NCBI GenBank assembly: GCA_913019905.1
Contig: CAJVZD010000020.1
Span: forward strand, 28,284-92,283
Length of the DNA stretch: 64,000 nt
Source of the DNA: an uncultured Cellvibrionales bacterium
GTDB lineage: Bacteria > Pseudomonadota > Gammaproteobacteria > Pseudomonadales > Dasaniaceae
Direction: 5' to 3'
Position numbers and translations under genes: made by a program. This document shows, in pieces, positions 3,307-54,756 of the stretch. Within the stretch, counting starts at the first letter, position 1. The number at the start of each line of letters is the position of its first letter. The notes under the pieces were generated by a model. The model was not told where the DNA came from. It saw only the letters and a list, made by a program, of their open reading frames with translations, and made no database searches.

Positions 3307-4236
3307 TTAGCGCAAATTACATGAGTTTCTCAACCTTTCGGCTATCTCTCCCGCGCCCTGAACACATAGGGCATCATTTGGTGCCACCACTTTTAAATTC
3401 ATGATACTGCATCCGTTCTGAACATAGGGCGAAAGATAGTCCGCAACGTCCTCCGGTGTACCGTAAGGTGTGTACTTTTCAAACCTCTCGAAAGGTATTT
3501 TGTAAAATGCCTCCATTTCTCGCGCAACCAATGCACGAGCTTCGGCTTTAGTATCGGCAATGCCAACCCAAGGTTGATAACCATGTTGCCAATCAACCTG
3601 ACGACCTGACTCAGAGGCGAAGTTATCAATTATTGCCAAGGCGTCTTTAAAACGCTTTACTGAACACCAAGTAGCAATCCAGCCATCACCAAAGTGCGCC
3701 GCGCGTTTTAGTGCAGCGTCGGAACGCCCACCGATGATGATCGGGATCTGGTCGCCAACAACTGGCTGAATACGGGCATTATCGACAGAAAATATCTCAC
3801 CTTCAAAATCGACTGTCTCTCCAGCCATTAATCCTCGCAAAATCTGCAGCGACTCGTTTGTTCGCTTGCCGCGAGTAGTCGGATCGACACCACAGACTTC
3901 GATTTCATGGCGGTCCTCACCACCAATGCCAACTCCAAACATTGTGCGACCCGGTGCGATTTTATGCATCGTAGCAAGTTGCCTTGCAACCGGAAGCGGG
4001 TGCCGAAGCGGTAACAAATAAATGCTAATCATCACGCCCAAACTAGGATTTAATTGCGAGAGCGCCGCAATTTCAACGAATCCATCAGTACCGGAACCAT
4101 CGTGAAAAGAGACGTGATCGGCCATATACATATGATCGATTTTGGCTTGATCCACCGCCTCGAGCAGGGCAGTTTTTTCTTTAAAAGAACTATTCCAGAA
4201 GTTGGACGGTGTTGCCAGACCTATTTTAAGTGCCAT
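3307..4236 (-). CDS. LLM-class (F420/FMN) flavin-dependent oxidoreductase
   Basis: Luciferase-like motifs (MYMADHVSF, FGVGIGGEDRHE, PIIIGGRSDAALKRAAHFGDGWIA); start with AGGAA SD at 4236. Confidence 0.9.
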   Translation of the reverse strand: MALKIGLATPSNFWNSSFKEKTALLEAVDQAKIDHMYMADHVSFHDGSGTDGFVEIAALSQLNPSLGVMISIYLLPLRHPLPVARQLATMHKIAPGRTMFGVGIGGEDRHEIEVCGVDPTTRGKRTNESLQILRGLMAGETVDFEGEIFSVDNARIQPVVGDQIPIIIGGRSDAALKRAAHFGDGWIATWCSVKRFKDALAIIDNFASESGRQVDWQHGYQPWVGIADTKAEARALVAREMEAFYKIPFERFEKYTPYGTPEDVADYLSPYVQNGCSIMNLKVVAPNDALCVQGAGEIAERLRNSCNLR

Positions 4237-4373
4237 TATTATTCCTATTAGTAAGCGCTCCGGCAATCTTCGATGCGACTTAGCGGTTTTATCGCATAAG
4301 CGACAAAGGGTTAACGGATATTGATCTTCCTATTCGAATAAAGGTCTGTCAAAAGCAGATCTATTCGACACGT

Positions 4374-5561
4374 TCAAAGCTGATCAACATTGGTATCAAT
4401 ACCCACCAACAACCTACCGACGAGTTCGAGCGTCGATTCATTCACCATCATATGCTGTGTGGCGACGTGTACATCGCGAAAATACCGCTGTATCGGGCTA
4501 CGTAGATAGACAGAGGTTCCTCCAGCCAACTTATAGATACTATCGACAACCTCTGCAGCCGATTGCACAGCATGCGTAGTGGCTAGTCGCACATCACGCC
4601 TTGCTTCAACGGTTGGTGCATCATTTTCTAACGCCAATTGCCAGGCGGTTGAAATGGCATCATAGAAAAAAAGTCGAGCAGAACGTAATTTTGCTTCTGC
4701 CTCAGCCACTTGTTTATGAGTGGCGGGTTTCATAGCCAAGGGCTTCGAACTACCCTGAGGCGTTTTCTGTTTGGCGAGAGCGATAAATTCATTCAAACTT
4801 GCCCTGGCAATACCCAGCGCGACTGCACCGATGCCAATACCTAAAAAGGCAAAAAGCGGGAAACTATGGATGGCACCTTGCGGTGTATTTTCTCGAAAAG
4901 CATCAAACGTCATAAATTCAGGAACAAATACGCCCTCTACTTTAAAATCCGTAGATCCGGTACCTTTTAATCCAGTAACGTGCCAGGTATCTAGAAGTTC
5001 AACATCGCTAACAGGCATAAAGAATGAACGCTGATCGGGTCGACCATTTGCTAGTTTAAGTAGCTCTCCCGATTCGTCGACGAGGAAACCACCAGCGGAG
5101 AGGTAGGTCGCATTCCGCGACCCGGAACCCCATTGCCATTGTCCGGTTAGTTTAAAACCTTTCATGCCATTTTCTTCACAGGCAATCGCACGCCCCATCG
5201 GCGCAAACACACCCGCTGTAATTGCCTGCGTATCAGACAGTAATTCGACTGCAACCTGGGTCGGCAAATTCGTCACCGACAAAGCTGAGGTAATACCAAT
5301 GAAAACCACCCAGGCTGTCGAAGCGTCTGATTGGGCCAGCGCTTCTACCAACAGCGCGTAGTCCAGCGGTGACCTGCCCAGCCCACCGAATTTTTTGGGG
5401 TTACATAATCGATACAAGCCCAATTCTGCAAGACGGTCAGCGATATCCTGAGAAACAAACCCTTGTCCCTCAAATTCCTCCGCCCTACTTCGTAACTCTT
5501 CCGCAAACGTACCCGCCAAAGCGACCACATCCACATCATCTTCTATAAATTTATTATTCAT
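4374..5561 (-). CDS. Acyl-CoA dehydrogenase family flavoprotein (HsaA/DszC-type monooxygenase-like)
   Basis: ADH-like fold motifs (ASTAWVVFIG, GKWQWGSGSRNATY-like, RYFRDVHVATQHMMV); start with AAGGAG SD at 5561. Confidence 0.88.
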   Translation of the reverse strand: MNNKFIEDDVDVVALAGTFAEELRSRAEEFEGQGFVSQDIADRLAELGLYRLCNPKKFGGLGRSPLDYALLVEALAQSDASTAWVVFIGITSALSVTNLPTQVAVELLSDTQAITAGVFAPMGRAIACEENGMKGFKLTGQWQWGSGSRNATYLSAGGFLVDESGELLKLANGRPDQRSFFMPVSDVELLDTWHVTGLKGTGSTDFKVEGVFVPEFMTFDAFRENTPQGAIHSFPLFAFLGIGIGAVALGIARASLNEFIALAKQKTPQGSSKPLAMKPATHKQVAEAEAKLRSARLFFYDAISTAWQLALENDAPTVEARRDVRLATTHAVQSAAEVVDSIYKLAGGTSVYLRSPIQRYFRDVHVATQHMMVNESTLELVGRLLVGIDTNVDQL

Positions 5562-5708
5562 TATTAACTCCTTGGTGAAATGTGACGACATCAGTTTCGT
5601 CACGTGTTTTTTGGCATTTTCCCAAATTCAAGAATTGATAATTATTGTGTGATATCGTGCACCATCCACATAGGGCATTTTGGGCCAGACAAGTAGGCAT
5701 TATAGGTC

Positions 5709-6686
5709 ATGATTAAACATCTGGCGTTCGAAAACTATCTCTACGACTTCCTTGCAGAAGAAAATATTGCAACTCACGCCATTAAATCGCAGATCCGCCA
5801 GCATGCAAAAGATCGGCACGAGCGCCTGCAAATGCTTGCCAATTATGCCATCAATCGATCTGGCGAAACATTATTGGGCCTTATCATTGGGCAGCGTATT
5901 ACTAATACCGCTTTTGGCATTCTTGGCCACGCACTAATCAACTGCTCCAGCTTATTAGAATCACAGCGTTTTTTGTTGAAACACATCTGGATATGGCAGG
6001 AGCATCCTCGCGATGCAGTAAGTCTACATCTCGATAAAGATCGTATTTATTTGCGTTATAACTATCCCACCCAATGGCCCCAGAACAGTCACTTTTTGGT
6101 TGATCTGTTTTTTTCGTCTAATCTAAAACGGTCGACGGAACTAATCGAAGGCGACATCAAGGGAGCATGCCTACAACTAAAACGCGAAACGCCCAAGAAC
6201 AAAAATACCTATAAACAGATTCTCAAAATCCCCGTGACATTTAACCACGATGTCGATCAACTTGTGTTTCCACGACGGCTCGCCGAAACCCCATTGTCAT
6301 CATCTTTTCTCATCCACTCACAGGGGTATCAGCGCCATTGCGAAAACTTACTCCTGCAAATGCAATCGGCCTCTGGTCTGACGGAAAAAATTCGCAGGGC
6401 AATTATGCACAGTGGTAAATCAAAATTGAAAGAGCCGCAAATGGCTTCCAAGTTACACATGAGTGTAAGAACTTTACGCCGCCGATTAAATGCAGAAGAA
6501 ACAAGCTACCGGGAAATACAGCGGCAAATCCAACTTCACCTAGCGCGTTCTTATTTAAGCGACACGGAATTATCAGTGGCCGATATTGCCAGCCTGGTGG
6601 GATATTTTGATACAGCAACCTTCAGCCGCGCCTTCAAAGCGTGGACCGGATATACTCCACCGCAATATCGACGAACTGACTTTTAA
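5709..6686 (+). CDS. AraC family transcriptional regulator
   Basis: C-terminal AraC HTH (MSVRTLRRRLNAEETSYREI...VADIASLVGYFDTATFSRAFKAWTGYTPPQYR). Confidence 0.93.
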   Translation: MIKHLAFENYLYDFLAEENIATHAIKSQIRQHAKDRHERLQMLANYAINRSGETLLGLIIGQRITNTAFGILGHALINCSSLLESQRFLLKHIWIWQEHPRDAVSLHLDKDRIYLRYNYPTQWPQNSHFLVDLFFSSNLKRSTELIEGDIKGACLQLKRETPKNKNTYKQILKIPVTFNHDVDQLVFPRRLAETPLSSSFLIHSQGYQRHCENLLLQMQSASGLTEKIRRAIMHSGKSKLKEPQMASKLHMSVRTLRRRLNAEETSYREIQRQIQLHLARSYLSDTELSVADIASLVGYFDTATFSRAFKAWTGYTPPQYRRTDF

Positions 6687-52748: not shown

Positions 52749-53228
52749 TTGAAACTATCATTGATGGCAGCAAAATCGAGAAATGGAGTCATCGGCAATG
52801 GCCCGGATATACCCTGGAGCGCAAAGGGAGAGCAACTGCTGTTCAAAGCAATGACGTACAATCAATGGCTGTTAGTAGGACGCAAAACCTTTGAGTCGAT
52901 GGGCGTACTGCCAAACAGAAAATATGCAGTTGTTACAAGGTCTGATTTTCAGTCTAGCGACGACAATGTTATGGTATTTTCATCCATCGATGAGGCCTTA
53001 AGAGAATTACCTAAATTTACTAACCACCTCATGATATCGGGCGGCGGCGAGATCTATAAAAGCTTAATCGCACACGTCGATACACTACATTTATCGACCA
53101 TAGAAACGGAAGTCGAAGGCAATATTGTATTCCCCTCTATTCCAGACACATTCCAGTTGGTATTTGAGCAATGGTTCGATTCCAACATTAGTTACAATTA
53201 TCAAATCTGGCAAAAAAAGACTCATTAA
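52749..53228 (+). CDS. folA: Dihydrofolate reductase
   Basis: [46 protein letters not shown] start with AAGGA SD. Confidence 0.92.
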
Positions 53229-53417: not shown

Positions 53418-54575
53418 ATGGAATACTTCACCTATATTGACTCGCCGTTTAACATTCGAGAAGACATAAAAATTGCTCATCGAAACTATTGGAAAGCGCT
53501 GGCGGCACCAGGCAGCTGGTGGACTGGAGAGCAAAGAATATCGATCGCCCAGGAAGTTCGCAATGCAACTGCTTGTGGATTCTGCGAGGAGCGTAAAAAA
53601 GCGCTTTCGCCCTATGCGGTGACAGGTGAACACGAGCACAGTACCGCCGAATTGTTAAGCACAGAAGCAATCGATGCAATACATAGAGTAGTGACTGATC
53701 AAGATCGAATTACCCAGGCCTATATTGATTCCAATGAGCAGCATGGCTTGAGCCCTGAAGCTTACGTAGAGTTGGTGGGTGTTGTTGTCACGGTATTTAG
53801 TATTGATGAGTTTCATCGTGGCCTCGGGCTAAAGGCCGAGCTTCTTCCAGAACCAACCGAGGGCGTATGTAGCAAATACCGACCCAAGCAAGCAGCGCGC
53901 GGAATAGGATTTGTGCCAATGATCCCCGCTGATGGCGCAACCGGCGCCGAAGCAGACCTATGGCCGGCGGGTATTTCGGCGAATGTGCTCCGAGCGCTGA
54001 GTTTGGTACCCAACGCCTTCAGAGAATGGTATCAGGTAAGCAAAGCTCAATATCTTTCACTTGAAGGAATGGGGAATTTTGTAAAACAGGATGATCGAGC
54101 GATAAACCGTATGCAAATGGAATTGGTTGCAGGCAGAGTTTCGGCAATTAATGAATGTTTTTACTGAACTAGCGCACATGCGACGATGCTCCGTGTGAGC
54201 GCGACAACGACAGAAACAAATATCGACCTACAAATGATTAACGGTGATAAAACCGCGGCAGCAGAACAGACCGGCGTCGAATATGGCCTGGAATTAATGA
54301 AATTTGCCGAGAGTCTTGCCACGCGCAATAACAGTGATTTGGCCAGAGATCGCCAAACACTCTTGGACGTTGCCGGTGAAAAAGTGCTGGTCGACGCTGC
54401 TGGAGTGGCAGCCAATTTCCAAAGAATGGTCCGAATCGCTGACTCTACAGGCATACCGGTTGACAATATGAACGCAAAGGTCAGTCAATTAGTTCGCGAG
54501 GAACTCGATCTAAATCGTTTTGGATCGGCACAAAATACGCTGTCAGCAGCTAAAGTACCCGTACCTGAAGTATAA
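53418..54575 (+). CDS. Alkylhydroperoxidase (AhpD/CMD)-related probable selenoprotein, Sec at in-frame TGA 54165-54167
   Basis: ORFs 53358..54167 and 54186..54575 share one frame separated only by TGA; junction reads NECFY-[TGA]-TSAHATMLR, i.e. CxxUxxxH at the AhpD CxxCxxxH site; GGAG SD before ATG 53418; downstream hairpin compatible with SECIS. Confidence 0.85.
54172..54202 (+). promoter_or_regulatory. Candidate bacterial SECIS element
   Basis: Manual fold: GCG+CACAUG pairs with CGUGUG+CGC (2-nt bulge), extended by GA:UC; apical loop CGAUGC begins about 17 nt after UGA with G at the second loop position. Confidence 0.55.
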
Positions 54576-54660: not shown

Positions 54661-54698
54661 CGATCGGCTAATCACTGTTAGCTTAGGCTAGCCGATCG
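54661..54698. terminator. Candidate bidirectional terminator between convergent genes
   Basis: CGATCGGCTA ... TAGCCGATCG inverted repeat between AhpD-like (+) and desaturase (-) genes. Confidence 0.55.
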
Positions 54699-54756
54699 CG
54701 ATAAAAGCACTAAACCCTGCATTATCTCTAAGCCAAGACAATCTCCGATCATAAAA

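Follow-up and report, generated by a model that had tools for sequence, protein, structure and literature searches.

The locus and its reading frame

The window analysed here, a 64,000-nucleotide stretch of DNA from an uncultured Cellvibrionales bacterium (assembly G000), contains on its forward strand a gene whose single reading frame is interrupted once. Translation starts at the ATG at 53418 and ends at the TAA at 54573-54575, and the sole in-frame stop between them, the TGA at 54165-54167, falls at codon 250 and is followed by 135 sense codons. The features discussed in this study are as follows, with U standing for selenocysteine (Sec); the last two are at other loci.

53418-54575, + strand: complete predicted selenoprotein gene of the NF041238 (AhpD_rel_CFYUT) family, 385 aa, with Sec at codon 250; 457 bits against a cut-off of 175
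53574-53585, + strand: N-terminal Cys pair C53-G-F-C56, kept in 6/7 members and lost in L082, which retains the TGA
54120-54179, + strand: AhpD-like catalytic set E235, C247, U250, H254 (E-x11-C-x2-U-x3-H), invariant in 7/7; Pfam CMD match at residues 221-266, and matches to TIGR01926 and TIGR00778
54165-54167, + strand: in-frame TGA, predicted Sec (U250), at the second position of a CxxC-type active site, C247-F-Y-U250-T-x2-H254; TGA at the same codon in 6/6 homologues
54187-54201, + strand: putative bacterial SECIS hairpin UGCUC / CGUGU / GAGCG, with the apical loop 24 nt after the UGA, G at loop position 2, then U
L082 1441-2625, + strand: divergent NF041238 member by sequence comparison, with CFYU kept and the N-terminal Cys pair lost
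L061 (G000:C88) 4159-6408, + strand: fusion gene for a 749-aa protein, an NDH-type FAD oxidoreductase at the N-terminus followed by SelD, whose active site (CGGCGAK) has Cys

Mechanical ORF calling divides the gene into two pieces, one ending at 54167 and the other starting at 54186. These are the two ORFs that the initial annotation had joined into one selenoprotein gene, with the prediction that standard gene callers would truncate it. Its reading of one open frame with a single TGA break at codon 250 is correct by translation, and the junction that it gave (AINECFY-[TGA]-TSAHATMLR), the downstream stretch that it quoted, and the N-terminal segment ACGFCEERK all match the sequence. Although split by standard callers, the gene is recoverable by plain sequence reading.

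The gene is preceded by a dihydrofolate reductase (DHFR) gene (52749-53228, + strand), which scores 290 bits against a cut-off of 250 for the DfrA1-like trimethoprim-resistance family NF000330 and whose product is 76% identical to the plasmid-borne DfrA16. It is the sole DHFR found in the assembly, and the DHFRs of 10 relatives reach at most 97 bits with the same model. Judged by its sequence, it may be related, as a chromosomal gene, to the mobile dfrA1 group. Shortly 3' of the selenoprotein gene lies an inverted repeat, GATCGGCTA...TAGCCGATC (54661-54700), which is perhaps a terminator.

Decoding of the in-frame UGA

The initial annotation had pointed to the homologues as a check on codon 250, and TGA is kept at this position in all six homologues from other genomes, at identities down to about 31%. 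The four close homologues (L005-L008, 57-66% identity) are from gammaproteobacterial, K189A-clade, and Woeseiaceae MAGs. Each has this TGA and scores above the NF041238 cut-off, and selA is present in each of the four genomes tested, i.e., those of L005-L008. The distant members L081 and L082 (31-33% identity) have TGA at the same codon too. Across the homologues, the sequence is conserved at the protein level on both sides of the TGA. A nonsense mutation in a recently broken pseudogene, or a sequencing error, would fit the two ORFs obtained by gene calling, but an explanation of this kind is extremely improbable in the face of six independent genomes with the same TGA, flanks that are conserved as protein, and a full set of Sec genes. 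The TGA is not due to chance, and a sequencing error would need to recur in each independent assembly.

The genes for Sec synthesis and insertion, selA, selB, selC, and selD, whose presence had likewise been proposed as a check, all occur in the assembly. The genes selA, selB, and that of tRNA-Sec (anticodon TCA) are side by side on contig C6, and SelD is encoded at L061 as a SelD-NDH fusion, which is a known type. Since the reported contamination of the assembly is 5.1% and the Sec machinery is located on contigs other than that of the selenoprotein gene, their occurrence in one assembly falls short of absolute proof; the Sec conclusion, however, has other support besides. At locus L008 (Woeseiaceae), selA-selB-selC is followed directly by the selenoprotein gene, and selD is close by; at locus L007, the selenoprotein gene is near selD and a tRNA-Sec gene.

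Another locus of the assembly, L059 (G000:C35, 1421-5369, - strand), comprises a second SelB-like gene (671 aa, 387 bits), separate from the selB on C6, and two genes that follow it, one of an unknown family and one for a UGSC-family selenoprotein with an in-frame TGA (...LAD-U-GSC). The SelB-like gene is explained either by two Sec decoding factors within the same genome or by contaminating sequence in the assembly, at the level given above.

A bacterial SECIS search, also suggested at the outset, revealed a SECIS-like hairpin after the TGA. The published bSECIS model has a loop of 3-9 nt at 16-37 nt from the UGA, an upper stem of 4-16 bp, and a G at loop position 1 or 2, the next base being mostly G or U (PMC13188914). 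The hairpin in the window fits this model, with its 5-nt loop CGUGU 24 nt from the UGA and a 5-bp stem whose outermost pair is U-G. The stem is possible in all seven sequences (columns 23-27 with 33-37; four of the five pairs in L082), and the loop reads CGUGN or AGUUU. In the hairpin alignment, 97% of the cells are paired, and two pairs have compensatory changes on both sides, in L081; this covariation comes from few, related sequences and was equalled by 24 of 500 shuffles. Synonymous recoding of the seven sequences, done 20,000 times, never gave the observed pairing, a result whose significance is overstated because related sequences were treated as independent. Single-sequence probabilities of the hairpin ranged from 0.04 to 0.13, and an Rfam search of the region gave no RNA-family match.

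A different account of the locus would have the UGA read through without Sec, as Trp or by unspecific suppression, or would have two separate proteins made, for which a start codon is available shortly downstream, at 54186. We regard this account as very improbable, as the catalytic Cys column is where the TGA falls, no recovered member has TAA or TAG there, the machinery for Sec is encoded in the assembly, and the hairpin obeys the bSECIS rules; two separate proteins would, in addition, have C247 split from H254. Sec is very probably the residue inserted at codon 250, as first proposed from the DNA alone, a reading that is supported by the sel genes, the six homologues with TGA, and the SECIS-like hairpin. 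The UGA would be decoded by SelB and tRNA-Sec, with the hairpin just downstream assisting.

The putative active site and the N-terminal half

The catalytic set of AhpD is E-x11-C-x2-C-x3-H, and the window protein has Sec at the second Cys. Residues E235, C247, F248, Y249, Sec250, T251, and H254 are invariant in all seven proteins, i.e., the window protein and its six homologues. In alignments, the Sec column is occupied by Cys in the AhpD-like proteins of known structure 6k40 and 3c1l, in agreement with the original placement of the TGA exactly at the second Cys of a CxxC motif. The CMD domain (PF02627) is matched with 23.2 bits, marginally above its gathering threshold of 23.

On the basis of these similarities, the protein is most likely a peroxidase or thiol oxidoreductase, in which Sec250 would be the attacking residue and Cys247 the resolving one. 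If it acts as AhpD does, a Glu235/His254 relay would activate the Sec250 selenolate for attack on a hydroperoxide (or disulfide), the resulting selenenic acid would be resolved by Cys247 to give a selenenylsulfide, and the latter would be reduced by a dithiol donor. The N-terminal C53/C56 pair could serve as this donor in most members, but not in all of them, because it is missing in L082. We slightly favour hydroperoxide reduction as the main activity. A Sec protein that is not a peroxidase, but a thiol-disulfide oxidoreductase or an enzyme for an unrelated substrate on the CMD/AhpD fold, is somewhat less probable and would affect the enzymatic step only. Peroxidase activity is deduced solely from distant homologues, the peroxidase-related proteins being the sole functional link, and the 2005 Sargasso Sea study described the family as a candidate redox protein of unknown function (PMC1088965); against this stands the invariance of the entire AhpD catalytic set of Glu, Cys, Sec, and His. 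As no assay of the enzymatic role of NF041238 was found in the literature, its members would be sensible subjects for initial biochemical testing.

The proposal in the initial annotation of a double-domain protein with CxxC plus CxxU holds in part: both the CxxU site and the N-terminal Cys pair (6/7) are there, whereas a second AhpD domain in the N-terminal half is less well supported. Pfam and NCBIfam profile searches gave no CMD/AhpD match over the N-terminal half, hhalign gave no signal of homology between the N-terminal and C-terminal halves (0.6%), and the pair is absent in L082. A structure prediction with five sequences reached a pLDDT of 34, too low for a reliable model, and a helix-Cys pair-helix arrangement appears in both halves in low-confidence secondary structure, which provides a lead only. 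The sole matches of the N-terminal profile were to chaperonins; they were weak and taken as chance. That C53/C56 is a built-in reductant of the Cys247-Sec250 bond, making the protein a self-contained two-site selenoperoxidase, is an unlikely though conceivable arrangement. If it were true, an external donor would serve L082 and any other member lacking the pair.

Relation to known families

The window gene is a new member of the catalogued family NF041238, alkylhydroperoxidase-related (seleno)protein. In a profile search, the read-through protein matched this NCBIfam equivalog with 457.1 bits (4.3e-137), and residues 13-369 aligned to positions 1-356 of 357, essentially the entire model. The motif C-F-Y-[U/C]-T is present at the active site, its Sec version (CFYUT) forming part of the family name itself, and the two marks of the Sec form, an in-frame UGA and the Sec machinery, occur in one assembly. 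According to a 2026 review, this CxxU selenoprotein family is the same as 'hypothetical protein 1' from the selenoproteome of the Sargasso Sea (PMC13188914). Given this equivalence and the NF041238 match, the family, its CxxU motif, and its Sec form are already in the literature, and the early caution about the family's novelty was well placed. The 2005 study described four Sec forms, with CXXU motifs and SECIS predictions, and its table of homologues extends beyond these four sequences (PMC1088965). Among the members recovered here, none is a full-length Cys form.

No further full-length member turned up in broad sampling of the class and the phylum, so that NF041238 is rare, and a scan of viral contigs found no relative. 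Within the taxonomic family of the window, a full-length NF041238 gene is present in one of 11 genomes and selA in two of 11, a distribution suggesting that the trait has been gained or lost. Taken as a whole, the reading of the locus as an NF041238 selenoprotein gene with UGA decoded as Sec and an AhpD-like product is highly probable. It adds a bacterium that has the complete Sec machinery to the hosts of this rare selenoprotein family, and leaves the understanding of selenium biology unchanged.

With the other recovered members of NF041238, the window protein shares the full-length match, the CFYUT motif, and the TGA at the same codon; nothing essential differs, its C-terminal tail being slightly longer. 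The AhpD-like/peroxidase-related proteins of TIGR01926 and COG2128 are matched by its C-terminal half (residues 185-348, 6.8e-10), with Sec aligned to their second Cys. However, the window protein stays well under the TIGR01926 cut-off (39 vs 81.8 bits), and these proteins lack its N-terminal region of about 180 residues. A Sec form of this group, 'AhpD-like 1' with CxxU, is known as well. The AhpD of M. tuberculosis (TIGR00777) has Glu, Cys, Cys/Sec, and His in the same order and spacing, whereas the window protein is far below the cut-off of that model (19.1 vs 191.95 bits) and differs from it in having Sec in place of Cys and an extra N-terminal half.
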